45,047 nucleotides of DNA, taken from positions 1 to 45,047 of the IMG/VR virus record IMGVR_UViG_3300045141_000138; one strand, 5' to 3'. Positions 8,232-45,047 of the stretch are shown piece by piece. Within the stretch, counting starts at the first letter, position 1. The number at the start of each line of letters is the position of its first letter. A program made the translations under genes and the position numbers. The notes under the pieces are model-generated. The model did no database searches. It worked only from the letters and a program-made list of their open reading frames with translations, and was not told the origin of the DNA. Source of the stretch: a virus.

Positions 8232-9425
8232 CTAGCTAGTGTAAAGACAAAGCTTTTCACCGAATGGTGGTCTAAGCCGCTCTGTAGCTGGCAATGTGTC
8301 TGTTATTGCCCAAAGAACCGGTATTTCCGGGTCGTCGCCAAAGCTTGTCGTTTGACCATCCGTCAAAAACACAATTGCCGCATAGTTGTCGTCACTATCA
8401 ATGACATGTTGCATAACAGCGCGGAAATTGGTTCCGCCTCCCGTACCATCGTGAAACTGTATCGTTTCGCCGGCTTCATAGTGGTCAATCGCCTTGACCG
8501 CAGTATCTGTATAGATAACGTCAATTGCATCGCACGCGCCATCGTCTAGCGCGCTCTGAGCTTCAACAAGCGCTTGCCTTACCTTGGCGCTATCCATTGA
8601 CCCGGATACGTCAATCATGAACGCGACAATTGACGGTCGAATTACCTTTTGACCCGGTAACACGTGGCCACGCGTCAAACCACGCCTAGACAATTTCGCC
8701 CAAGATGATTGGCGCGAGCCTAGTACGTCAATGAAGGCTCTTAACGGTTGCCGCCAATCAATCACGTTATGCATTGAACGCGTGGCGCTAATCGCGACAA
8801 GGCTTGTGGGAATATGACCGCCAGCCATAAGCCCGGCTTTACGGGCAGCGCCAAGGGCTTGCGAAACTGTCTGTTCAATGCGTTCATTTAGTTCGCCCAA
8901 TTGTTCGCCACTCATAGGTGAGCCGTCATCGTTTGACGGCTCAATCATATTTCCAGATTGTGGCGTATGCCGTGGCGTATTGCCTTGCTTTTTGTCTTGC
9001 TCGTTTTCGCGTGAAATCACGTTATAAACTTGTTCGGCAGACAAGCCATCAAAACGCGTATCTAGCAAAAGACCATCTGGCAACGTGAAACCAGCTTTCA
9101 CTAGATCAAGGTTTAATTCGTAGTCAGCAGCCATATTCCAAGTGTTTTGATCTCTATCGCCCATGCGCGGGAAGTGTCTTAGCGCCACGTGCGAAATTTC
9201 ATGGGCGATTACTCCCATGCACTCACTTTCAGTGAGAGCCATCACATATGCGGGCGAATAGTAGATTGAGCGGCTATCTGTGGCCATTGTCTCAATTTCA
9301 TCGCTGGCTACCATTGGCATAGTCAGGCCAATTGTTCCCCAGAATTGCGCGTTTCGATCTTCGAATAGCTTTCGCCTTGCGCGCGCAACGCGTTTTGACG
9401 CGTCTTTGATATGTTCCCAAATCAT
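8232..9425 (-). CDS. Metallopeptidase-VWA fusion protein (DUF2201-like)
   Basis: The 397-residue product has two domains. The first is a zinc-metallopeptidase-like domain with HEISH at residues 75-79 and a downstream NMAADYELN segment, as in the DUF2201 putative metallopeptidases. The second is a VWA domain with the metal-ion-dependent adhesion motif DVSGS near residue 270 and FLTDGQT near 355. The linker (about 155-195) is Gln/Asn/Gly-rich. Such proteins pair with MoxR AAA+ ATPases, which lies directly upstream here, and probably act together in remodelling a protein complex. The ATG has GGAG 9 nt upstream. An AUUGG-loop hairpin lies 18 nt before the start. Confidence 0.85.
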   Translation of the reverse strand: MIWEHIKDASKRVARARRKLFEDRNAQFWGTIGLTMPMVASDEIETMATDSRSIYYSPAYVMALTESECMGVIAHEISHVALRHFPRMGDRDQNTWNMAADYELNLDLVKAGFTLPDGLLLDTRFDGLSAEQVYNVISRENEQDKKQGNTPRHTPQSGNMIEPSNDDGSPMSGEQLGELNERIEQTVSQALGAARKAGLMAGGHIPTSLVAISATRSMHNVIDWRQPLRAFIDVLGSRQSSWAKLSRRGLTRGHVLPGQKVIRPSIVAFMIDVSGSMDSAKVRQALVEAQSALDDGACDAIDVIYTDTAVKAIDHYEAGETIQFHDGTGGGTNFRAVMQHVIDSDDNYAAIVFLTDGQTTSFGDDPEIPVLWAITDTLPATERLRPPFGEKLCLYTS

Positions 9426-9443
9426 AGCTTTTCGCTCCGTTAT

Positions 9444-9462
9444 CTAGCCGCCAATCGGCTAG
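9444..9462 (-). promoter_or_regulatory. AUUGG-loop hairpin before the VWA gene
   Basis: In minus-strand RNA a 7-bp stem (CUAGCCG / CGGCUAG) closes the loop AUUGG. Its 3' end is 18 nt from the ATG at 9425, just before the ribosome-binding site. Matching hairpins precede the two other genes of the module with different stem bases, so pairing and loop are kept. Confidence 0.75.
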
Positions 9463-9466
9463 GCGA

Positions 9467-9496
9467 TTGACCACCATCGTTTCCAATGGTGGTCAA
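9467..9496. terminator. 11-bp inverted repeat between MoxR and VWA genes
   Basis: Arms TTGACCACCAT (9467-9477) and ATGGTGGTCAA (9486-9496) are perfectly complementary around an 8-nt loop, 14 nt past the MoxR stop. There is no U-tract. It may attenuate transcription or protect the 3' end. Confidence 0.6.
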
Positions 9497-9509
9497 CTAG
9501 CCTAAGCGA

Positions 9510-10580
9510 CTAAGCCGCTACGTCGTTTCCGCTACGGGCAATCGCGTAGGCAACATGTTCGGCAGTCTCGCGAAAGCTATCGTCTTTCGCAATCGCCATT
9601 GACCAGAATGCGGCCTGATAAAGCGCTTCGTTGCGCGCAATGTATCGGCCGATCTTCGTGATATTCGCATGCGTCAATCGCGACACTAATCCGACAATTA
9701 CCGCATAATTCACGGACGGCTCGCGGGCGATTGGCGCGCCACTCGGGTCCGCCAAAATCAAATCGACGTTAGGCGCGAGCCGATACGTTGCAAGAAAGTT
9801 CATCAAATCATTGGCGCTATCCTCGCCAATGTTTTGCGCGAATAGGCGTCGCAATTGCGTATCATTCGGCACTGTCGTCATTTTTAGATATTTGTCGCAA
9901 CGCGCGAGTGACCTAGGCGTCACAAAAGCAATTGCGTCATTTCCGCTCGCTGTCGGATATCGATGCAATGCATCCGCGCCCATACCTTGCCTATTGGCGT
10001 TTTGAATGTACGCAATTAACACGGGCGAAATGCCATTGGCAATTGCCCAATCTATCCAAGCTTGAACGTCTATCGCAATTTCCATGATTGCGAGCCGATT
10101 TGACATGGCGCGCGATATTTTCTGGCTTGCCGCTTTATCGGCCGCACGATTGCCCGTCGCGACTATGTGCGCATTGTCGGGCAATGTGTATCCTGGCAAT
10201 GCGCGATCAAGGATTAGCTGGTTTAGCGCCGCTTGCACTGCAATTGACGCGTCGGTTAGTTCATCAAGGAATAGAATGATCACGTCGTATTGTGCGGCCG
10301 TAACGCTATCCGGCAACCATTCCTGTAGACACGCGATAACGCGACGCGTTGTGATATCGGGCATTGGAATTGCTAAATCTGTCGGTTCCATCTGGCTTGC
10401 GCGTTTGTCGATTACCAAAACGCGTTTTGAACCATATGCGCTTGAACGGAGTTTATCGGCGCATTGCCGCACAATGTCAGTTTTTCCGACGCCTACGGGT
10501 CCAATGATCAATGTCGCGATTGACAGTTCAACATTGACCATCAAGTCCGATGACGCTTGCGCGAGAGTGATTGCAGACAT
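9510..10580 (-). CDS. MoxR-type AAA+ ATPase
   Basis: The 356-residue product is a single AAA+ domain of the MoxR/CobS kind: Walker A GPVGVGKT at residues 27-34, Walker B LFLDE near 103-107, sensor 1 ATGN at 141-144, and the arginine region SNRLAIMEI near 160-168. The C-terminal 150 residues form a helical lid. MoxR ATPases work as chaperone-like motors with VWA partners, and a VWA gene follows. The ATG follows GTAGGGAAACGAAA, with an AUUGG hairpin 19 nt upstream. The substrate in phage infection is unknown. Confidence 0.85.
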   Translation of the reverse strand: MSAITLAQASSDLMVNVELSIATLIIGPVGVGKTDIVRQCADKLRSSAYGSKRVLVIDKRASQMEPTDLAIPMPDITTRRVIACLQEWLPDSVTAAQYDVIILFLDELTDASIAVQAALNQLILDRALPGYTLPDNAHIVATGNRAADKAASQKISRAMSNRLAIMEIAIDVQAWIDWAIANGISPVLIAYIQNANRQGMGADALHRYPTASGNDAIAFVTPRSLARCDKYLKMTTVPNDTQLRRLFAQNIGEDSANDLMNFLATYRLAPNVDLILADPSGAPIAREPSVNYAVIVGLVSRLTHANITKIGRYIARNEALYQAAFWSMAIAKDDSFRETAEHVAYAIARSGNDVAA

Positions 10581-10599
10581 TTTCGTTTCCCTACGTTGT

Positions 10600-10614
10600 G
10601 CCCGCCAATCGGGC
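10600..10614 (-). promoter_or_regulatory. AUUGG-loop hairpin before the MoxR gene
   Basis: In minus-strand RNA the stem GCCCG / CGGGC closes the loop AUUGG; its 3' end lies 19 nt before the ATG at 10580. The core CGAUUGGCG is shared with the hairpins at 9444-9462 and 11618-11638 while the outer pairs differ and still match. Confidence 0.75.
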
Positions 10615-10630
10615 TCAGAAACCGCACCAT

Positions 10631-10678
10631 GCGTTTTCTGCCGATAGGGTGGACAACCACCCCATGGGGAGAAAACGC
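10631..10678 (-). promoter_or_regulatory. Nested inverted repeats in the MoxR leader
   Basis: GCGTTTTCT (10631-10639) pairs with AGAAAACGC (10670-10678), enclosing GGGTGG-acaa-CCACCC (10647-10662). On the minus strand the outer 5' arm is the T-rich tail of the terminator at 10677-10703. A downstream segment can therefore compete for that tail, as in attenuation or anti-termination. Confidence 0.5.
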
Positions 10679-10703
10679 GAGCCTAGGGCTGTCCTAGGCT
10701 CGC
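10677..10703 (-). terminator. Terminator after the 11598 gene
   Basis: An 11-bp perfect stem (GCGAGCCTAGG / CCTAGGCTCGC) with a 5-nt loop, followed on the minus strand by GTTTTCT, lies 7 nt after the gene stop. It contains two facing copies of GAGCCTA, the heptamer also repeated in the noncoding region at 11.8-12.4 kb. Confidence 0.75.
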
Positions 10704-10710
10704 GCGTAGC

Positions 10711-11598
10711 CTATGCCATAAAATCCGACACTGCGCTCACAATCTCTTTTGCGGCCGCAATTGTGTTGCGCCGCGCAATGTCATCGGCTCGCAAGTCCTC
10801 GGCTTCATACGTTGTCAACGCCGTCATGTCGCGCACTAGCTGGTCAATGCGCGTATCACCCGTAAAATTCAGACCAGGGAGAATGCTCAGCAAGTCGCGC
10901 ACGTTTGAAACCAGCGTATCGCGAAACGTGCCACGGTCTTTGCCCGACGCATTCGGTTGGAATGCGTCGAGCTTTTCGACCATGGTGCTAACCGTATCGT
11001 GAACGCGTTCAAATACATCGATAACGGCTGCGTTTGCCCGTTCCGTGACGGTAGCTTCAATCTCTGCCCGAACGCGCGCGATTGCGCTTTGCCCAATGTC
11101 AACGCGAAAATCAGCAGCCGTGGGGATTGGCATAACGCGATTGCGCCAAGAAAACTTGGCGCTAATACGCGTTACTTGCGGATAATCCGCATGATTAAAC
11201 AGTTTGCCAAGTGCCACATATTCGCGGGAAGCATCTTCGCGCATAGCAGGATACGTAGCCACAAATCTGTCAACCAACGGATAGAACCTTGCCTCATATG
11301 CTTCCATCCCAGCCATATACGCAGCATGATTGGCAACGCTGAGAATGCGCGCGCCATTGTCAAACCATGGCGACGTTAGCCGCATGTGGAACAATCTGGC
11401 TTGCATAACCAGATTGTTTATTTCCGACAGGATATCGGAAACGACAAGCTTTTTGCTGACATGCGCAAGCTTGCCGCTTGCGCGCTTTTCGTCTGTCAAG
11501 TCCGCTGACGCGGCCTTGTCAATCTTTCTGGCTGTCCATTGTGACACGCTGAAATCTACCAGCATGGCTACGCTAGCAATGTGAGCCGTTCCGTTCAT
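10711..11598 (-). CDS. Phage helical protein, partner of the MoxR/VWA module, 295 aa
   Basis: The N-terminus has SVSQWTARKIDKAASADL. Further on come MRLTSPWFDNGARIL and MEAYEARFYPLVDRF, a pattern I recall from uncharacterised phage proteins that sit beside MoxR and VWA genes. The chain is largely helical, with no catalytic motif seen. The open frame runs to 11769, but the ATG at 11598 has GGGGA 7 nt upstream and places the AUUGG hairpin 19 nt away, as for the two other module genes; this decides the start. It is the first gene of the module and ends at a strong terminator. The function is unknown; a substrate adaptor is one possibility. Confidence 0.7.
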   Translation of the reverse strand: MNGTAHIASVAMLVDFSVSQWTARKIDKAASADLTDEKRASGKLAHVSKKLVVSDILSEINNLVMQARLFHMRLTSPWFDNGARILSVANHAAYMAGMEAYEARFYPLVDRFVATYPAMREDASREYVALGKLFNHADYPQVTRISAKFSWRNRVMPIPTAADFRVDIGQSAIARVRAEIEATVTERANAAVIDVFERVHDTVSTMVEKLDAFQPNASGKDRGTFRDTLVSNVRDLLSILPGLNFTGDTRIDQLVRDMTALTTYEAEDLRADDIARRNTIAAAKEIVSAVSDFMA

Positions 11599-11617
11599 CG
11601 TCATTTCCCCATAGCTT

Positions 11618-11638
11618 GCCCGTCGCCAATCGACAGGC
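11618..11638 (-). promoter_or_regulatory. AUUGG-loop hairpin before the 11598 gene
   Basis: In minus-strand RNA GCCUGUCG pairs with CGACGGGC (seven Watson-Crick pairs and one U-G wobble) around the loop AUUGG. Its 3' end lies 19 nt before the ATG at 11598. Third member of the set at 9444-9462 and 10600-10614. Confidence 0.75.
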
Positions 11639-11649
11639 GAGACACATAC

Positions 11650-11678
11650 ATAATCGCTTGTGTGCGAGATTGCAACAA
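11650..11678 (-). promoter_or_regulatory. Possible promoter of the MoxR/VWA module
   Basis: On the minus strand TTGTTG (11673-11678), a 17-nt spacer and GATTAT (11650-11655) give a moderate sigma70 match. Transcription would start only a few bases before the AUUGG hairpin. Confidence 0.35.
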
Positions 11679-11794
11679 TCAAAACACGGAAAAAGAACAC
11701 GCGCGAATTGCGTGCGCGTGCAACAAAAATATGGTCGAAATATGGCAAGAAACAAGCGGAAATGAACAATTTTGTTAAGTATTAGGAAAAGTCG

Positions 11795-12667
11795 CTTTCA
11801 AATTGAAAGTGAGCCTATCAACGTACTTCTCAATTCTGAGAGTTTGGATCGATCCAAAAACACTATACTTAGACAACAAAAAGCCATAATCGCTAGAAAC
11901 GGCTGAAATCAGCCATTCTTACAAATATGTTAAAATCGTAAACATAGTGTAAAAAGCTTAGCTGCGGTAGTGATTTGGTCCATTTTTTCAACGCAGGGAT
12001 AGCCTAAAAATAGGCTCACTCTATAGGCTGACCGGATTGGAGAATAGAAAAAAATTGGACTTGCATACAACCACCGCTGAACTAGGGCTTTATTCAGTAA
12101 TACCGCTTTACAGAAAAGCGAGCCTAAGAGAAATACAGTAGAAAATTGAGCCTAACTCTAAAAAAACAACGACAAGGGAGTAAACAGCTTTAGCTGTGTT
12201 TTTATAGAGTTATGGCTGTAGAAAAAGGCCGAACCGGCATAGGCGAAAAGAGGCATAGTCAACCATGGTGGTCTCGCGCGAGCCGAGCCAATGCCAATCG
12301 CGAGCCGTCCTAAACGCGCTCTGAGATTACAGGCCAAAGATCAATGTGAGCCTAGCTAACATCAGAAATCACTAATTTTGCTAGTGAGCGCGGTTGACAA
12401 GATTGTCAGAATATGCATAGGGGAAATATGGGCTTTATGGGCATTTAACACTTTACGTCGCGGAAAGATTTTACCCGTAAAGGCTATTTACAAAAATGTA
12501 ATTGCTTGCATTTAGCATTCGTGGGAATGGCTTTACACTTTTGCAGTAATTACAGGAATGACATTTCATGCGCTTTACGCAATAAACGCGTTGCGTGTAA
12601 CATGTTGCAAGCGACTTGTCGCGCGTAACGCGTTTTGCACATGTGTTAAAGTACAGTTTAGTAAACT
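11795..12667. promoter_or_regulatory. Seven palindromes in the noncoding region
   Basis: Perfect inverted repeats: CTTTCAA-A-TTGAAAG at 11795-11809; TTTGGATCGATCCAAA at 11843-11858; GGCTGA-aa-TCAGCC at 11901-11914; AGCCTA-aaaa-TAGGCT at 12001-12016; ACAGCT-tt-AGCTGT at 12184-12197; TGACAA-ga-TTGTCA at 12395-12408 (overlapping a TTGACA); AGTTTA-g-TAAACT at 12655-12667. They differ from each other, so several proteins or a structural role are more likely than one operator family. Confidence 0.6.
11811..12354. repeat. Five copies of heptamer GAGCCTA
   Basis: Copies at 11811-11817, 12011-12017 (reverse), 12120-12126, 12148-12154 and 12348-12354. Further copies flank the loop of the terminator at 10677-10703, and one is at 19260-19266 before the capsid gene. 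All are noncoding, which suggests a bound site rather than chance. Confidence 0.5.
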
Positions 12668-12797
12668 ATTCTCTTGACAAAGATGTAAGCAAGTACAATT
12701 AAGTAAAAGCCAGAACAAATTTGGAAAATTATTTCATCTGACGGAGGGTGGGGGGCCTTTACAATTCCGCTTTGGTGGCCGCTCGCTTGCGAGGAGG

Positions 12798-12877
12798 TTT
12801 GTAAATTCCGCCCCAAAAATCCGCCAAGTAAATTACGTATTTATGTAAAGAGCATTTTTGTAAATTCCCGCCCAAAA
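12798..12877. repeat. 21-nt near-repeat TTTGTAAATTCC(C/G)GCCC within TGTAAA-rich DNA
   Basis: Two near-identical 21-mers start at 12798 and 12857, 59 bp apart. A third partial copy is near 12757. The surrounding 12480-12970 holds a dozen TGTAAA, TTTACA or AGTAAA motifs, an iteron-like density. Confidence 0.5.
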
Positions 12878-12919
12878 TTACGCGCAGCATTTTTTGTATT
12901 GATGTACATATTTGTAAAG

Positions 12920-13221
12920 CGCTCTCCAGGGGCTCAATAGCAGGATCAGAGCCGAGAGTGTTGTAAACGCATATTGGCCGTGATTGGCTTGACGAGCTAT
13001 AACCTCATACCGTGGTCAAACGCCGCTGCGGGCCTATGGCTTGCGCCCAAGTCGCGAATGTGCTATTGGCTCAAGCCGCGAGCCAATAGGGGCTCAGAGC
13101 CTGACCGGCGCTCAGCCCGGTCGAAGACAGGGAGCCGATAGGTTCCGGCCTTAAGCTGGAATTCAGAACCGCACACTGAAATCTGCCAAACTTGACAGGG
13201 AGCCGCTTTGGCTCCCTTTTT
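12920..13221 (+). ncRNA. Candidate structured RNA ending in a terminator
   Basis: In order on the plus strand: CTCTC/GAGAG with GGCTC/GAGCC at 12922-12958; a perfect 10-bp hairpin CTATTGGCTC / GAGCCAATAG at 13063-13089; GACCGG / CCGGTC at 13103-13122; and the terminator GGGAGCC-gcttt-GGCTCCC-TTTTT at 13198-13221. No plus-strand gene precedes the terminator, so it would end a noncoding transcript. TTGACA at 12674 is a possible upstream -35 box, but its spacing to TACAAT is short. Alternatively the hairpins serve the convergent terS transcript. Confidence 0.4.
13198..13221 (+). terminator. Rho-independent terminator, plus orientation
   Basis: A 7-bp stem GGGAGCC / GGCTCCC with a 5-nt loop is followed on the plus strand by five Ts. 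On the minus strand it follows the terS stop by 9 nt and is preceded by AAAAA, but has no U-tract after it. It probably works best on the plus strand and may also close the terS transcript. Confidence 0.75.
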
Positions 13222-13230
13222 GTTAACGCG

Positions 13231-37688: not shown

Positions 37689-39767
37689 TCACGCCAGGGG
37701 CGGCGCGGGGGTGTCTGCCTCGGGCGGCTCGTACTCAGGCAGGATCAGGACCGGCTCGGGCAACTTGGCTCCCTCGACACCACCGATAAGCACCAGCACT
37801 TGAGTTTTGTTGTCTACTTCCAGCACCATCGTATAGCGCTGGCCAGTTGTTATGTCTGTGTATGCGTGTGGAACTGTGCCGCGCTTGAATATTAAACGTA
37901 TCTGTTCCGCTAGTGATTTCTCTGATCTAGCCGGCGCATATGCGTCTCTTACAACTAGACCAGCCTGCATCACAGACAGCTTGTTTTTATTGTACTCGAT
38001 CATATAGTCGCCAATTGCGTTGACGTACGTAGCGTTGAGCAGCGCTGCGGCATTCTGCGCGTTAATGGGCGAAGCCACAGGAAACTCGTTGTTGTTCAGA
38101 CGGATTATCTTACGTGCAAACCAAGCTATCTCAGTCAATGGCCCATGATTGCTTTTGGATATACGCAGCGAGAAATACTCGTTGTGCCGGCCTTGCTCGA
38201 TCCGGTCAGTGTCCATTTGTGGAAGTATGTTCGCGACCACTCGCGCGCTTGACACTACGCTGCCAGCGCCCACAGACAAATCAGGACTGTCAGGGTCCAA
38301 GTCTTTTCGTTGCATCATGTTCTTAGCAGTGTGATGCGTGACAGCTAGGCTTACGTCCAGCTTTTGTGCGAAGACGTGCAAGACTGCCATAGCCTCGCTC
38401 ATTTGCGCGTTGTCATTCTCGTTTATGCCGCGCAGTATCTTTCGCAGCGGGTCCATTGCCATCAGCTTGCAATCAGGAAATTCGTTCTTGTACTCGCTGA
38501 AAAAGCGTACTGTCTCGTCTGGTATACGCATTTTACGATCAACATACTCAGCAAGTATGTGACCACCAAGCTCTTGGCCAGCAAAGCGGAAATGCTGGCG
38601 GACGTGGTCAAAATCCATGTTGTACACTTGGCACGCCGCAGCCATGCGGCCAGAAATCCAATCTGAATTGTCTTCTGGGTTATAGAGCAGCATATCAAAT
38701 GCGTTGTCTATCTTGAACTGTCCAAAATCGCGGCCCGACACGATATGACAGCCAAGCGCCACAAGCAGCATTGACTTGCCAACGCTACCCGGTCCAACCA
38801 GTAACGTCACTTCACGCTGTATGAATAACGACTTGGCTAGCCATTTTGTTGGCGCTATGTCCGTCACGTTCTTTGCCATGAACTTATCCCAGCTTTTTGC
38901 TATTGGCGTGGCTACCACTGGCGTATACGTCACGCCATTGAGGATGACATCAGGATCACGCGAGCCTGTCTGGCCTATTGCGTACGCTTCGGCGTTCTCG
39001 ACTTTGCGCTGTAGCTCGTCAGCATCCCATGGCGGCTCACAGCGCGGATTGAAATGCTCCAGCATCAAAGCGGTGGTCGTGGGCTCGCTCAGCCCGTAGT
39101 CTCGCACGCCCATGCACGCAACGTTATATGTGTGCTGATCACCACCCATGCCTTCGATGGCCGGCTCTACGTGCAACAAGTATTCTATGTACAGCGGGAT
39201 TGCCTTCTCGCTGTCTGCGTGGCCGTTGAAGCGCTCTTTGCGCGTCTTGATCGGCTTCAACAGCGGTATAATCGTCTCGAACAGTTCAGCAATTGGCTTA
39301 TCTACATGTATCTCGTATCCGCCGCCGCTTTCAATGCTAAAGCTTCCCGGTCCAATGCCGTAGCCATGTTCGCAACGTATATCTACGGCGGGTACTACGT
39401 CTTGCATATTTGTGAACGTCTTGCCAGCAGGCAACCGAAAATAGGCTTGTAAACCACCGGAAGCTGTCTTGACCACGAGCGTGTTGAAGTGTCCGCCTAT
39501 GCTTTCGTAGTTGGCAATTGCTGAGCGCCTGAATTTCTTGTCGTACTTTGTGTCTATATCTATGATGATTAACGTGCCGCCGCATAATACGCCTATGTTG
39601 TAATCCTTGCTGCCTGTGATCGGGTCAAACCATAGTTGCTTGATCCGTTCAGGATCACGTGTCGCTTGCTCGATAAACGAGATGCTTGGCCGCTTGCTGC
39701 CCAAGTCCATAGGAAATACGTCTACGCCACGCGCACTGAACGCGAGTGCTTCCTCTACGGTGGCCAT
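37689..39767 (-). CDS. Primase-polymerase / RepA-like helicase fusion
   Basis: The 692-residue product has an N-terminal bifunctional Prim-Pol domain (about 5-170) with the acidic motif IDIDTK near residue 70, GGLQAYFRLP and the His-Gly segment CEHGYGIGPGS. A RecA-fold helicase (about 300-520) follows, with Walker A GPGSVGKS near 327, Walker B LMAMDPLRK near 437 and the His motif VTHHTAKN near 480. The C-terminus is Pro-rich. It should make primers and unwind DNA at the fork with the adjacent polymerase. AGGTGG precedes the ATG by 4 nt. Confidence 0.85.
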   Translation of the reverse strand: MATVEEALAFSARGVDVFPMDLGSKRPSISFIEQATRDPERIKQLWFDPITGSKDYNIGVLCGGTLIIIDIDTKYDKKFRRSAIANYESIGGHFNTLVVKTASGGLQAYFRLPAGKTFTNMQDVVPAVDIRCEHGYGIGPGSFSIESGGGYEIHVDKPIAELFETIIPLLKPIKTRKERFNGHADSEKAIPLYIEYLLHVEPAIEGMGGDQHTYNVACMGVRDYGLSEPTTTALMLEHFNPRCEPPWDADELQRKVENAEAYAIGQTGSRDPDVILNGVTYTPVVATPIAKSWDKFMAKNVTDIAPTKWLAKSLFIQREVTLLVGPGSVGKSMLLVALGCHIVSGRDFGQFKIDNAFDMLLYNPEDNSDWISGRMAAACQVYNMDFDHVRQHFRFAGQELGGHILAEYVDRKMRIPDETVRFFSEYKNEFPDCKLMAMDPLRKILRGINENDNAQMSEAMAVLHVFAQKLDVSLAVTHHTAKNMMQRKDLDPDSPDLSVGAGSVVSSARVVANILPQMDTDRIEQGRHNEYFSLRISKSNHGPLTEIAWFARKIIRLNNNEFPVASPINAQNAAALLNATYVNAIGDYMIEYNKNKLSVMQAGLVVRDAYAPARSEKSLAEQIRLIFKRGTVPHAYTDITTGQRYTMVLEVDNKTQVLVLIGGVEGAKLPEPVLILPEYEPPEADTPAPPLA

Positions 39768-39775
39768 GATGCCAC

Positions 39776-40084
39776 CTAACGAATTTGAGTGAGGCGAAAA
39801 CTCTTGCGCAAACAGCCGGGCACAATCCGAAGCTTGGAGCCCTTGCGCTGTTCGTGTGCGTTTATGCGGCCAGTGTACACGCCAAAACCGCCGCCGCCTG
39901 TGTAGGCTAATCCTAGTTCGAATAGGATGGTTTCAACGTCAATGTCTACGTCTATGCCTTTGCTCAACATAAACGCGACAATAGCGTCACGTGTCGGGCT
40001 CACTTCACGTAGCGAGTGCCCGTCCACGTACTTGCTGCCATTGGAAAATCCGTTGCCCATGCCGGCAACTGCGTCATTAGCCAT
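39776..40084 (-). CDS. Hypothetical protein, 102 aa, overlapping the polymerase end
   Basis: No family is recognised. The N-terminal half is Gly/Ser-rich, and the middle (TRDAIVAFMLSKGIDVDIDV, then ETILFELGLAYTGGGG) looks like a small helical domain with a basic C-terminus. The ATG at 40084 lies 85 nt inside the polymerase gene, yet it has AAAGG 8 nt upstream, which supports it. It lies between polymerase and primase-helicase and may be a replication accessory. Confidence 0.55.
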   Translation of the reverse strand: MANDAVAGMGNGFSNGSKYVDGHSLREVSPTRDAIVAFMLSKGIDVDIDVETILFELGLAYTGGGGFGVYTGRINAHEQRKGSKLRIVPGCLRKSFRLTQIR

Positions 40085-42261
40085 TGGTAATACCTTTCAT
40101 GGTCCACTGATCGGTCATACCAGTTGGGCTTGATTAATGATAACAGTTCGTCATGTACGGTTAAACAGACTTCGTAGCCTGCTTTTTCAGCGCGTACGAT
40201 AGCCGGCGCTAGAAAATCGCGCGCGGTGCCTTGTACTATATTTTCGCACTGGTATCCGCCATAAAGTGTTTTTCTTGTCCACTGTTTGACATCGTTCAAA
40301 CCGTAGAACTGGACGCCGCGTCTACTGCGTTGCACCACCCTGTAACCTGATTTGAGCAAGGCGTCAAGTTCGTACGGAAACAAACAATCAACATCAACAT
40401 ATTGTGTGCCGTCGAAGATTTTTTCCTCTGTTAACACCATTACATGTGGTTGGGCATACATAAGCACGCGACCGCTCGGCAGACGACAATAAAGAAACTG
40501 CGTATCCGAGAAATAGTTAACGCGTCCACCGTACACTGGTATTGCTGTGCCCGGCCGGTCAACGGCTTGTATAGCTGCGTCCTGCAAATCCCACCAGCTT
40601 TGCACTATATTGGGATTTGACTTGCGCCAGCCCAGCACGGCGACTTTTACCGCTGTCCATGTCGCCTCGTCTAGCTGCATCTTGTCGCGTGCGTGCGGAA
40701 ACCTCGCCGCGACGCTATCCCATACTTCGGCAGGGGTGGTTGCCGCGATTGCGCGTACTAGGCTCGTCATCTTCAATAAATACGTTTGTGTCGCAGTCAC
40801 AAATGCCCCAACACCACCCTGATATCCACACTGTAGCTCAATCACTTTGCCAATCTGGCGGAGTGGTTTGGTGACTTGTTCGGGCTCGATATTAAATGCT
40901 TTGGCGTAAGCAAGCTTATAAAGATCAGGGCCAATATGATTGTCATAGTCACGGAAAGCTTGTAACTTCCATTGCTCATCTGCCAACCACGCGTTTATCC
41001 TGCCTTCGATGTTTGAGAAGTCGCCACCAACGAATAGCTCACGCTTCGGATCGGATACAGCTATCGTTGAACGCAGCGACTTGGCCAGCCATGCGAGCGT
41101 AGCCAGCCCGCCTTGCTTGTCGCCATTTGCGAGCCGTGGCGAGCCAATCAGTTCGATCATGTCGTACACTTCGCTGAGCGGGCGCGTCGTGTCGCTCGTG
41201 ATCCCCACCACGAACGACACGATTGCTGCCTCTTCGTCGTCGCTCACGCGCACATAGTTCTGCGGCTGCACCACACGGCCAGCCCAGCGCATCGTCTGCT
41301 GAGCGCCACCGAATTGCAGCCAACCACGCCCACGCCCGTCAGAGCCCACGCTAGTCTTGATGGCGCGATATTTGGCCGTGCTTGTCTTGCCGGTGGTTGC
41401 CCGTAGCTCGATTACATCGGCGGCGTCGTCATCGTCGGCGCTCTCGGCCAAATCGAGTAGTCTCTGTCTATCGCCCTTCCGTAAACTTGTTGCACCAATA
41501 TGACGCGAATTAAGCCATGCCACGATCTTAGCCACTTCGGTAGCTTTATTGACCGCGCCACTTGTGAGATTGCTAATCTCTTCATTAGCGCGTGTCTTAG
41601 CATAGTCCACCAGCTTTATTGCTCGTTCGACAAACACCATGTCGTGCGGAATACCACGGTCATTGATACGCTGGTCAATGTGCCATAGCTCTAGTTCGTC
41701 AGGCGTCAGTTCCGGCAGCACTGCATTCGCATGGCGTTCGACATTCACGTCTTGATCGCAGTAGTCTTCTTGCGCCAGCAACAGCGTCGGGTCATCCCAC
41801 CATACGATTGTACCGTTGGCTTCGATGCGTCGCGGCTTGCTCAGCTTCATCATGACTGAATGCCCAGCCATGTCTTTCTCAGGCAAGCCCAGCACCTTGG
41901 CCAGTTGTTCAAGTTTGCCAGGGAGATTACACGCGAATGCACGCACCATCAAATCGCTTGTTTGCTCAATGCGTAATTCAGGCAATACCTGATTTTGCGG
42001 TCGTAGGCAGTATTCCCAAATTATGCGTTCGAATGGCCCATGCGTAACAACACGCCAGCCACGTGTTACGTGGTACAGCAGATCGAATGGAACTGGCTCG
42101 CCTTTGTACGGTCGCCAGCGTTTAATTGGCCCTTGGCCCATACAATAGCTGGCCACAAGCACTTGTGTGCTTGGGTCAGACGCGTAGCGGTACGCGCCCG
42201 CTTTCTTCAGCGAGCAAACGCTACGCGTCTCGAAATCAAGTACGCAGTCGTCAGATTGCAC
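40000..42261 (-). CDS. Family A DNA polymerase with 3'-5' exonuclease
   Basis: The 753-residue product has an N-terminal DnaQ-like exonuclease (VLDFETRS near residues 8-15; VVTHGPFERIIWE near 72; YCDQDVNVE near 168). The polymerase domain carries motif A (GGDFSNIEGRINAWLADEQ, near 417), motif B (RQIGKVIELQCGYQGG) and motif C (LTVHDELL near 707). It is the phage replicase. The start appears to be GTG at 42261, overlapping the anti-defence-like gene by 11 nt; no strong ribosome-binding site is seen, so coupling is likely. Confidence 0.92.
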   Translation of the reverse strand: MQSDDCVLDFETRSVCSLKKAGAYRYASDPSTQVLVASYCMGQGPIKRWRPYKGEPVPFDLLYHVTRGWRVVTHGPFERIIWEYCLRPQNQVLPELRIEQTSDLMVRAFACNLPGKLEQLAKVLGLPEKDMAGHSVMMKLSKPRRIEANGTIVWWDDPTLLLAQEDYCDQDVNVERHANAVLPELTPDELELWHIDQRINDRGIPHDMVFVERAIKLVDYAKTRANEEISNLTSGAVNKATEVAKIVAWLNSRHIGATSLRKGDRQRLLDLAESADDDDAADVIELRATTGKTSTAKYRAIKTSVGSDGRGRGWLQFGGAQQTMRWAGRVVQPQNYVRVSDDEEAAIVSFVVGITSDTTRPLSEVYDMIELIGSPRLANGDKQGGLATLAWLAKSLRSTIAVSDPKRELFVGGDFSNIEGRINAWLADEQWKLQAFRDYDNHIGPDLYKLAYAKAFNIEPEQVTKPLRQIGKVIELQCGYQGGVGAFVTATQTYLLKMTSLVRAIAATTPAEVWDSVAARFPHARDKMQLDEATWTAVKVAVLGWRKSNPNIVQSWWDLQDAAIQAVDRPGTAIPVYGGRVNYFSDTQFLYCRLPSGRVLMYAQPHVMVLTEEKIFDGTQYVDVDCLFPYELDALLKSGYRVVQRSRRGVQFYGLNDVKQWTRKTLYGGYQCENIVQGTARDFLAPAIVRAEKAGYEVCLTVHDELLSLIKPNWYDRSVDHERYYQWLMTQLPAWATDFPMAASTWTGTRYVK

Positions 42262-42643
42262 TGTCGGTAGCGTCGATCACTGTCTGCAAATAGTCCAGGG
42301 TGGTGTCAGCCAGCTTGACACGGCCGGGCTGGAACACAGCGCGATTGAGCGCCATAAAGGCTTGCTCCATTTGTGTACGCGCGATGGCCAGCCAACGCTG
42401 GTCAATGCTTGTCTTCGTCTTGTGTGCGTCCATCACGCGCAATACGAGTTCTTCAAGCTCTTTGTGCGCGTTGACGATCCTGACGTTCACGTCAGGCTGT
42501 GTCTTGTAGCCAGCCACTGGCAAGCCAGTGTGTTCTGTCTTCTCAGCCAACTTGTTTCTCCCGCGTTTGCTGTTTAGCATTCTGTCCATTGCATCGCGTT
42601 CAGCCTGCGTGCGTTTATTTATCTGTAGCTTTTCCTCCGTCAT
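42251..42643 (-). CDS. Acb2/Tad1-like hairpin-domain protein, putative anti-CBASS/anti-Thoeris sponge
   Basis: The 130-residue product has a basic N-terminal helix (about 1-35) and then the pattern of the Acb2/Tad1 hairpin domain: PVAGYKTQPDVNVRIVNAHK, a long helix, and DQRWLAIARTQMEQAFMALN followed by RAVFQPGRVKL. In Acb2 and Tad1 this two-helix hairpin forms hexamers that bind cyclic nucleotide alarm signals of CBASS or Thoeris. The open frame runs to 42676, but the ATG at 42643 has GGGAG 7 nt upstream. It overlaps the broken Tad2-like gene by 29 nt. Ligand choice cannot be judged; the domain also occurs in untested proteins. Confidence 0.75.
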   Translation of the reverse strand: MTEEKLQINKRTQAERDAMDRMLNSKRGRNKLAEKTEHTGLPVAGYKTQPDVNVRIVNAHKELEELVLRVMDAHKTKTSIDQRWLAIARTQMEQAFMALNRAVFQPGRVKLADTTLDYLQTVIDATDSAI

Positions 42644-42866
42644 GTACGATCTCCCAATCGCCGGCCAGTAGATCACTCTGTGAACACAGCCATGGTATCA
42701 GACCGCCTTGTGCCGTACGCATGTACACGTATGGAAGTGTCATCTTGCTGTGTTCATCAGGCACTTGCAAGGCAAGTCACATGTTCTTGCCGTTCCAGCC
42801 CGCTCGCGCGACTTTCTCGCCGTCACGCATTGCGTCAACCGCTTCACCAATTGTCATCTTGCCCAT
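42615..42866 (-). pseudogene. Tad2-like (DUF2829) anti-Thoeris gene with one in-frame TGA
   Basis: A frame of 83 sense and stop-replaced codons starts at ATG 42866 (AGGGA about 9 nt upstream) and reads MGKMTIGEAVDAMRDGEK, then VARAGWNGKNM. It meets TGA (42777-42779) and continues in the same frame LALQVPDEHSKMTLPYVYM, then GGLIPWLCSQSDLLAGDWEI, to TAA at 42615-42617. Both halves match DUF2829, the Tad2 family that binds the Thoeris signal molecule. The TGA stands where the family often has an aromatic or hydrophobic residue, so a TGG-to-TGA change is the simplest reading. Readthrough or a sequencing error is possible. Confidence 0.8.
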
Positions 42867-42900
42867 AACGCGTTTTCCCTGTGTTGCCACGTGAGAGACA

Positions 42901-42940
42901 GGCGGGACCGGACTACGTGGCGCGTTGAGCCGGTCCCGCC
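42901..42940 (-). terminator. Hairpin between SSB and the Tad2-like gene
   Basis: GGCGGGACCGG (42901-42911) pairs perfectly with CCGGTCCCGCC (42930-42940) around an 18-nt loop. On the minus strand it is followed by TGTCTC, a poor U-tract, so it is probably an attenuator that lowers expression downstream of the abundant SSB. The 92 nt between it and the SSB stop hold no gene that I can see. Confidence 0.65.
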
Positions 42941-43031
42941 CTTAACGAGCAAAGCTGGGTATGATGCGGTCTTAACCAGCCTTGCCCCTTCCTGCGGCCA
43001 GCTTGCAATAGCCGCAAGGTTCCTGCCTCGC

Positions 43032-43922
43032 CTACATCAGCGAGGATATGTCGTAGGCGTCCTCAGCCGGCGTTGTACGCGCCATTCCGCTGTAGAGCGG
43101 GTTGGGTGGCGGGGGTGGCGTAAAACCGCTCTGTGGGGCTCGTGGGGCCTGCCAGCCGGGAGCCATGCCAGTGACCGGTGGTATATAGGGACCAGAACCA
43201 CTGACAGGCGGCGGCACCATGCCGGCCAGCGCAGCCGGATTGACTTGCGGCGGCTTCACGCTGACGCCCTTGAATGCTTCACGCGGGTCGATACCACCAC
43301 CACTGAGGTTCTGATCGTCGCCAATGATCATAACCGCTTGCAGCCCGTACGAAACGCCTTTCTTCGGCTGCGGTGGTGTTTTGCCATACCCGTACGCATT
43401 GACCACCAGAATGGCCCATACGCCGGGATAGACCTTCGCCTTGTCTACGATCAAATTCTTTTGCGGCGTTGCGTCCACGATGCTCGGCTTGAATTTCGAC
43501 GTGTGGTTTATGTACATCAAGCCAGGAGTGAAGCCTTCGAACTTATGCGCTTTTTGTGCGCAATCGTGGAACGGGTTTTCCAGGCCGGAATAGCCGGGCG
43601 GATTGAGGTTTGGATTGTAGTAGTCGGGGAACATCTCGCCGCACACACGGTAGTATTCACTGTAGTACAGCGACAGATCGCTAAACGGTGTGTACAGAGC
43701 GCACACACTGTATTTTGGCGTTGCACCAGGGTTGCCGGTCGGCGCTTTCGGGTCAAACAACGTATCGCAGAACGCCAGCCGTACCGGACCAGACGACAGC
43801 ATACGCCCTTCACCCGGCAGCATGTTTACCGGATTGGCTGCGCATACCTCGCGTATCCACTTGTCGCCAATGACGCTGTTTGTCATCAGCGTATTTCCAC
43901 CTATGAATGATGATCCTGCCAT
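43032..43922 (-). CDS. Single-stranded DNA-binding protein (DUF2815/Enc34-like)
   Basis: The 296-residue product has an OB-fold-like core (about 1-200) with the family pattern SGPVRLAFCDTLFDPKAP, PKYSVCALYTPFSDLSLYY and VVNAYGYGKTPPQPKKGVSY. A long Pro/Gly-rich flexible linker (about 215-280) follows, then an acidic tip PAEDAYDISSLM, like the partner-binding tips of other SSBs. It coats single strands during replication. It lies between the Cas4-like nuclease and the polymerase block; AGG lies 6 nt before the ATG. Confidence 0.85.
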   Translation of the reverse strand: MAGSSFIGGNTLMTNSVIGDKWIREVCAANPVNMLPGEGRMLSSGPVRLAFCDTLFDPKAPTGNPGATPKYSVCALYTPFSDLSLYYSEYYRVCGEMFPDYYNPNLNPPGYSGLENPFHDCAQKAHKFEGFTPGLMYINHTSKFKPSIVDATPQKNLIVDKAKVYPGVWAILVVNAYGYGKTPPQPKKGVSYGLQAVMIIGDDQNLSGGGIDPREAFKGVSVKPPQVNPAALAGMVPPPVSGSGPYIPPVTGMAPGWQAPRAPQSGFTPPPPPNPLYSGMARTTPAEDAYDISSLM

Positions 43923-43954: not shown

Positions 43955-45047
43955 TTATGTTTTCTGCTTGCTAGGGTCTGTGTACTCAATCATAGTCGCT
44001 ATGTTTACTGCCGGTCGTTTGTCATCGTAATCGACCAAAGTAAGATTACCAGAAGTATCGCGTATCATCAAGGGAGCCATTGCCTTGTTTGCTTCCTCGA
44101 TCAACTTTTTTGAATTCCTCTGGCCAACGCGTTCATAGATTGCGCTCTTGACCAGCGCTCTTGCTTCCGTGATCGTCACAAGCTTGGGCTGAATGAATAC
44201 ATTCCCAGGAATACCGGCTATCTGCCCAAGGTTCCCTGCGATCTCGCGCGGATCGCCATTCCACTTGCTGCGCGCCTGAGAGAAAACAAGTTTTTTGCCC
44301 GGTATGTTTGCACCAGCCCTTGCCAGCGCAATCGCTTGCCTGTGTACAGCCTCGAACCACTCTTCGACCATGTCGCGCATTGTCAGAATATCAGCTATCC
44401 TGTCCACACTGAGCGAATTGACCGGTGGTAGACCGTCCTTTATGTCTTTCGTCTCATTGTACGTCGGTAGCACGCTACGCATACGATGTTGCTCAGCTTC
44501 GGGGCAAGCCGATATGGCGGGGCACCACCGGCAGTACGAGCCCGGTCTGATCTCAGGTACGCGCTCACGCGTTTTCTCAATGGCGAAGTTAACTTCGCCA
44601 ATGAACTGGTCCAATCGTTCATCGTTGCAAATCCACTCGCGCATCTTGCCGTCGCGATGAAAACCTCTTGGTTGCATGATCATCATGCGATAGATCGTGC
44701 GCCCACTGTTGCACATGCCTTGCTCGCGCAGCGCTTGCCGTGAACCAACGCAGTAGAACAGCAACTGTGTGTTCTCTTGCACGTTCACAGCTACGCCACT
44801 ACCATGTTTATAGTCGGCCACGATCATCATGTCCAGATCGGGCACAAATATCGTCACGTCTGACGTACCACCAGCGTCGTCGTTATGGGTGGTTGGAAAC
44901 CGGAATTGTGTCTCCAAGTAAACGTGTATATCAGGCGCGTAGGCGTCTATCAGGTCTTGTACGTGGTCTAATGCGTCTTGCACGCTTTCCAGCCTGATCT
45001 CTTCGTCGTCATGCCTGTGTTCCCATTCCAGGCCAGCTTGTATCTTT
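43955..45047 (-). CDS. Cas4/RecB-like nuclease (DUF2800), 5' end beyond the window
   Basis: The frame is open to the right edge: 21 codons lie upstream of the first possible start at 44983, and the N-terminus is probably missing. Nuclease residues are visible: GGTSDVTIFVPDLD and IVADYKHGSG give the PD-(D/E)XK Asp and Lys, followed by Gln in NVQENTQLLFY. CRWCPAISACPE gives Cys ligands of an iron-sulphur cluster type. The family is widespread in phages next to DUF2815 SSB genes, as here, and probably acts in recombination or DNA processing. Confidence 0.85.
   Translation of the reverse strand, partial: KIQAGLEWEHRHDDEEIRLESVQDALDHVQDLIDAYAPDIHVYLETQFRFPTTHNDDAGGTSDVTIFVPDLDMMIVADYKHGSGVAVNVQENTQLLFYCVGSRQALREQGMCNSGRTIYRMMIMQPRGFHRDGKMREWICNDERLDQFIGEVNFAIEKTRERVPEIRPGSYCRWCPAISACPEAEQHRMRSVLPTYNETKDIKDGLPPVNSLSVDRIADILTMRDMVEEWFEAVHRQAIALARAGANIPGKKLVFSQARSKWNGDPREIAGNLGQIAGIPGNVFIQPKLVTITEARALVKSAIYERVGQRNSKKLIEEANKAMAPLMIRDTSGNLTLVDYDDKRPAVNIATMIEYTDPSKQKT

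Follow-up and report, generated by a model that had tools for sequence, protein, structure and literature searches.

A putative two-sponge cassette in a phage replication operon: an intact Acb2-type gene beside a Tad2-like frame interrupted by a stop codon

The locus described here raises the question of whether two short, overlapping frames in a phage replication operon form a pair of anti-defence sponges, and if so, what is meant by the stop codon that interrupts one of them. The window analysed is the whole of the IMG/VR virus record IMGVR_UViG_3300045141_000138 (45,047 nt), and the two frames lie near one of its ends on the minus strand. The best explanation, to which we assign a probability of roughly 0.55, is a two-sponge anti-defence cassette in which the Acb2-type gene is intact and the Tad2-like gene has been stopped by a recent nonsense codon. 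Judged from sequences and a structural model, the small products of the two neighbouring genes probably sequester alarm signals of the bacterial host. Both belong, as new members, to sponge families already known, and it is their recurrent pairing that is the interesting part. The features of the pair are as follows.

42615-42866, minus strand: Tad2-like frame (PF11195, formerly DUF2829), 83 codons, interrupted at codon 30
42777-42779, minus strand: in-frame TGA with C as the next base, codon 30 of the Tad2-like frame
42876-42880, minus strand: AGGGA, Shine-Dalgarno-like, 9 nt ahead of the Tad2 ATG, read from the sequence
42251-42643, minus strand: predicted Acb2-type hairpin protein, 130 aa, intact (PF24729, AF2 model, Foldseek)
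42651-42655, minus strand: GGGAG, Shine-Dalgarno-like, 7 nt ahead of the ATG of the hairpin gene, read from the sequence

Read from 42866 to 42615 on the minus strand, the first frame translates as MGKMTIGEAVDAMRDGEKVARAGWNGKNM*LALQ...ATDK, and its sole interruption is one TGA (42779-42777, codon 30). The preliminary description of this DNA had claimed that the 252-nt frame matches DUF2829/Tad2 along its whole length except at this codon, and a profile search of the joined frame bears this out: with TGA read as W, positions 1-73 of the 73 in PF11195 are matched at 88.1 bits (E 5.5e-25), the curated cut-off being 25 bits. The 29-aa part upstream of the stop and the 53-aa part downstream of it score 35 and 42 bits, respectively, i.e. 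both pass the cut-off separately, so that the match is independent of the residue chosen at codon 30. The halves are easily missed, as had been pointed out, each being shorter than the 60-aa limit of the list of open reading frames. When the entire record was searched independently in six frames, a single Tad2 match came up (42857-42645, with one TGA inside) and no second, intact Tad2; with its stop at codon 30 the gene is thus a broken member of the family in this record.

Among 81 aligned Tad2 relatives the column of codon 30 is occupied by W (48), Y (23), F (9) and H (1), and a stop is found there in none of the 81. The conserved columns are kept at 11 of 11 positions before the stop and at 13 of 14 after it (24 of 25 overall; the family residues considered were R21, G23-W24-N25-G26, W59, S62-Q63, D65 and D70-W71), and the post-stop identity of the window protein ranks 41st of 80 among the relatives. 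Judged from this alignment there is no decay past the TGA, which leaves three readings of the stop, as a recent change, a leaky codon or an error. The undecayed sequence fits a recent loss, but readthrough, or a mistake in sequencing or assembly, would explain it equally well. The preliminary description saw in the combination of one intact and one broken sponge a sign of recent change in the immune pressure on the phage; the combination itself stands, as the hairpin frame is open and the Tad2 frame carries the TGA, and the change in pressure can be offered as a hypothesis.

An error in the record, or a minority variant in a population that keeps an intact Tad2 together with the intact Acb2-type gene, is unlikely in our view and has to be taken seriously. 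It would account for the undecayed sequence after the stop and for a difference from the relatives that amounts to one codon. Moreover, the locus is known from a single metagenomic record: viral_contigs was searched for the DNA flanking the stop, with A or G allowed as the last base of the codon, and yielded no further copy. Against it, no other broken gene was seen in the record, in whose 13,000 codons about 4,000 single-base changes could make a stop. The long genes common to the window and its closest sister phage, L083, whose polymerase is 74% identical, comprise the polymerase, primase-helicase, SSB, nuclease and structural genes (several thousand codons) and contain no internal stops in the alignment, so errors are not common across the record.

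The second gene overlaps the first by 29 nt (42615-42643), exactly as first described, and the Acb2/Tad1 hairpin proposed for it is found: the product of 42643-42251 matches PF24729 over positions 1-58 of the 58-position profile at 52.9 bits (E 4.1e-14; curated cut-off 27 bits). The hairpin domain spans residues 45-105 and is accompanied by an extra N-terminal helix and a C-terminal helix. When a profile built from 17 hairpin proteins was compared with PDB sequences, T4 Vs.4 (7uq2) was matched with E 5e-11 and Pseudomonas-phage Acb2 (8h2j) with E 2e-10, while Tad1 came later (E 4e-4). In the profile alignment K61 of the window protein falls in the lysine column and aligns with Acb2 K26, which we take to be a ligand-contact lysine, and Y46 aligns with T4 Y8 and Acb2 Y11. 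The T4 substitution Y8A yields a binding-deficient Vs.4 mutant (PMC12657218).

Structure prediction points in the same direction. The AF2 model has a pLDDT of 75, the hairpin mostly exceeding 85, with helices at 51-73 and 82-103 and a short N-terminal helix that is not clearly modelled; its first Foldseek match is T4 Vs.4 Acb2 (7uq2; probability 0.97). The top rows of VIA-align were Wzc coiled coils, generic helical matches that were set aside. The model is all-helical, the N-terminus being a helix, and the N-terminal beta domain of Tad1 is missing, which makes the protein Acb2-type rather than Tad1-type. By profile and model, then, we assign the intact hairpin protein to the Acb2-type family.

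Elsewhere PF24729 hairpins are found in replication and structural operons and also fused to other modules; in view of these contexts the domain by itself is no proof of a sponge. The hairpin could be a mere oligomerisation element of a replication or structural protein, and the long N-terminal extension of the window protein, similar to that of a different protein of L083, would suit such a role. We nevertheless regard this as rather improbable, given that the ligand-contact tyrosine and the lysine column are retained and that the domain is repeatedly paired with Tad2, a family with a tested role in signal sequestration. A fused member occurs in a Flavobacteriaceae locus, where a hairpin protein adjoining Tad2 is joined to a crAss001_48-related domain (PF21825; L157:3257-3688), and in Rhizobium phage RHph_X2_26 the gene immediately ahead of a hairpin gene encodes a TIR domain (L094:1941-2746).

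The pair is located inside the replication operon, as had been stated, and its neighbours are on the same strand.

43955-44983, minus strand: DUF2800 / PD-(D/E)XK nuclease (PF10926, 120 bits)
43032-43922, minus strand: Enc34-type ssDNA-binding protein (PF10991, 65 bits)
42867-43031, minus strand: structured leader that separates the SSB gene from the two sponge genes and contains a GC-rich hairpin GGCGGGACCGG...CCGGTCCCGCC
40000-42261, minus strand: family A DNA polymerase (PF00476)
37689-39767, minus strand: Prim-Pol / DnaB-type helicase (PF09250, PF13481)

The polymerase starts 11 nt within the end of the hairpin gene. The leader folds better than all of 200 dinucleotide shuffles (z -3.2), and L083 has an analogous GC-rich stem at the same place; an attenuator or an RNA-processing site is possible. 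Phages of Brevundimonas, Rhizobium, Rhodobacter and Caulobacter supply the named relatives of the hairpin protein, and a Rhizobium phage has the nearest named polymerase, so the host is probably an alphaproteobacterium. Two other regions of the window may be mentioned here. The first, about 1.45 kb at 11780-13230 (GC about 47%), contains no ORF of at least 60 aa and carries repeated TAGGCTC-like motifs; it is possibly a control or origin region. In the second (8232-11769) a DUF2201 metallopeptidase/VWA gene stands beside a gene for an AAA_5 (MoxR-like) ATPase and a weak DUF3150-like gene.

Three further explanations concern the stop codon itself. The first is that it is leaky, i.e. that the Trp-tRNA of the host now and then decodes UGA-C and a little full-length Tad2 is made. 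It is established that tRNA-Trp can read UGA-C at a low rate, the base after the TGA is C, the Trp that would be inserted is the commonest residue at this position (48 of 81 relatives), and conservation is retained downstream. On the other hand, the stop is absent from all relatives and hence is not a conserved programmed signal, and a sponge works stoichiometrically, so that a low output would be of little use; we consider the leaky stop quite unlikely. Secondly, the loss of the sponge may have been selected, for example by a Panoptes-type defence that punishes removal of its decoy cyclic dinucleotide. There are precedents: in T4 mutants that escape Panoptes, acb2 has acquired premature stops and other loss-of-function changes (PMC12657218), and in naturally resistant T4-like phages acb1/acb2 are broken, in one case through a nonsense mutation (PMC12657230). 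Here, however, the Acb2-type gene has stayed intact, the window Tad2 is without the dinucleotide-binding insertion, and among four Tad2 proteins assayed only SptTad2 slightly triggered Panoptes (PMC12657218), which leaves selected loss with very little likelihood.

Thirdly, the idea of a recoded gene, also raised in the preliminary description, can be set aside as hardly credible: code 4 would turn the frame into a complete Tad2, but TGA ends more of the phage's own 40 confident genes than either other stop (17 of 40, the hairpin and polymerase genes included), all 204 Trp of these genes are TGG, neither a suppressor nor any other tRNA gene is present in the window, the long frames are open under table 11, and not one of the 81 relatives shares the stop.

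If we return to the two-sponge cassette with a recent nonsense codon, the following mechanism can be proposed. The intact Acb2-type product would form an Acb2-like oligomer that traps cyclic di- and trinucleotides and would thereby silence CBASS-type immunity early in infection. An intact Tad2 would have bound the ADPR-type signals of Thoeris (gcADPR or His-ADPR), complementing its Acb2-type partner. The stop would be a real mutation by which Tad2 activity was lost, and what is left would be a 29-aa fragment that lacks the remainder of the fold. The hairpin gene should still be translatable from its own ribosome-binding site, since its own Shine-Dalgarno-like motif makes a start possible independently of Tad2 translation.

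The association of the two families is by no means confined to this phage. We gathered 80 viral contigs by Tad2 similarity alone and then searched them with PF24729, which scored above its cut-off in 22. In 15 of the 80 the hairpin gene lies on the same strand and no more than 128 nt from Tad2 (9 downstream, 6 upstream), compared with about 0.4 expected under random placement, and after merging of near-copies 12 of 17 clusters have the adjacency. The genes flanking the viral pairs are mostly unrelated. Within one lineage with shared flanks the order of the pair is reversed (L020/L027 versus L060/L061/L063), a sign of repeated assembly. On a tree of 81 Tad2 proteins parsimony needed 7 changes for a downstream and 6 for an upstream hairpin gene; the tree is not long enough for the pairing to be dated or rooted, and its supported branches are compatible with one origin. 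A neighbouring hairpin gene above the cut-off is also present in 7 of 80 loci from bacterial genomes (Amycolatopsis, Mycolicibacterium, Paenibacillus, Lysinibacillus, Flavobacteriaceae, Marinosulfonomonas and an uncultured bacterium). An intact pair on the same strand, with a 1-nt overlap, is carried by the isolated Mycobacterium phage MalagasyRose (NC_073465.1); in phage Nergal the hairpin gene is present but Tad2 is missing. This side-by-side occurrence in many unrelated phages suggests that the two genes work as a set. No described Tad2-Acb2 pair was found in the open-access papers searched; the clustering of anti-defence genes in general is already known (e.g. PMC7648647). Another kind of neighbour is seen in Aeromonas phage Ahp1_CNU-2021 (L115), where a Tad2-like gene stands beside a nicotinamide phosphoribosyltransferase gene, an arrangement that hints at combined anti-Thoeris and NAD-restoring functions.

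The slot between the SSB gene and the DNA polymerase is variable. In L083 it holds neither Tad2 nor PF24729 and is occupied by a 127-aa protein (L083:5210-5590). The N-terminus of this protein is identical to that of the window hairpin protein at 12 of 21 residues, an agreement reached by 1 of 5000 shuffles, and the two genes have a 35-nt DNA match. Its C-terminal domain, here called FFxYGHL, corresponds to phrog_1761/phrog_5120 and is found in 268 phage records with no Pfam match. It occupies sponge-like positions in three phages: in L083, in L036 (5612-5998), where it is directly upstream of Tad2, and in L023 (4365-4595), where it is near Tad2. A model of the domain consists of a short helix and a long hairpin. 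With hhalign it resembles one hairpin subfamily (P 0.0015 over 36 columns), which is suggestive, and its first PDB sequence match is the weakly scoring 'Acb2 homolog 43' (E 0.09). Profile comparison with a broader hairpin set gave no match, and neither Foldseek nor VIA-align returned a meaningful match for the model, no Acb2 being among the PDB matches listed. We regard the FFxYGHL domain as a candidate for a third sponge. A search for this family in the window record gave no match, but the control genomes gave none either, so that the result carries no weight. There is also an N-terminal module, 'GYxVxY..Y.SWSP.E.FE.GY', that is common to a Caulobacter-phage hairpin protein (L092:3749-4315) and a Vibrio-phage FFxYGHL protein (L109:1878-2300), as if the C-terminal domains were interchangeable.

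A more general picture can be put forward tentatively, and we think it somewhat likelier to be wrong than right. According to this picture a two-gene sponge cassette recurs in phages of several bacterial phyla, has been assembled repeatedly and in either order, and has an exchangeable second slot; FFxYGHL would be an alternative occupant of that slot and an unrecognised sponge family, and the members would be gained, swapped and broken singly as host signals change.

Sponges have so far mostly been found and studied singly. A cassette that joins an ADP-ribose-type and a cyclic-oligonucleotide sponge would, if true, mean that Thoeris and CBASS are met by phages as a combined threat. It would also provide a rule of guilt by association, by which genes beside Tad2, or in the corresponding slot of a sister phage, become candidate sponges, beginning with the widespread FFxYGHL family. 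If the broken copy is real, it would be a natural loss of one sponge with the partner kept, and would bear on whether defences that guard against sponges, such as Panoptes, shape phage genomes.

It is instructive to compare the window proteins with the known sponges. Firstly, the Acb2 proteins (7uq2, 8h2j) have the same helical hairpin with a conserved N-terminal segment and conserved Y and K columns, and structural alignment gives 26-30% identity over 66-69 residues. The window protein differs from them in an N-terminal extension of about 44 residues that contains a helix, in a C-terminal helix (112-129), and in a shorter loop between the two long helices. Secondly, Tad1 has the PF24729 hairpin in common with the window protein, but it carries an N-terminal antiparallel beta-sheet domain whereas the window protein is predicted to be all-helical. 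Thirdly, in comparison with Tad2 of SPO1 (gp34.65, 8sme) and SptTad2 (8wjd), the window frame has the whole PF11195 domain and all but one of the conserved post-stop columns, and differs by the stop at codon 30 and by the missing insertions that both of these proteins have between strands 2 and 5. It is via the strand 2-5 insertion that Tad2 binds cyclic dinucleotides (review PMC12043709); 3'3'-cGAMP is not bound by SPO1 Tad2 (PMC11722364), and His-ADPR has been reported as a ligand of MoTad2. Since the window Tad2 is without this insertion, its predicted ligand is of the ADPR type only. The slot protein of L083 shares the position between SSB and polymerase and the similar 21 N-terminal residues, but has another C-terminal domain. 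Finally, the MalagasyRose pair consists of the same two families, adjacent and on the same strand; both of its genes are intact, however, and the pair is next to terminase genes instead of being part of a replication operon.
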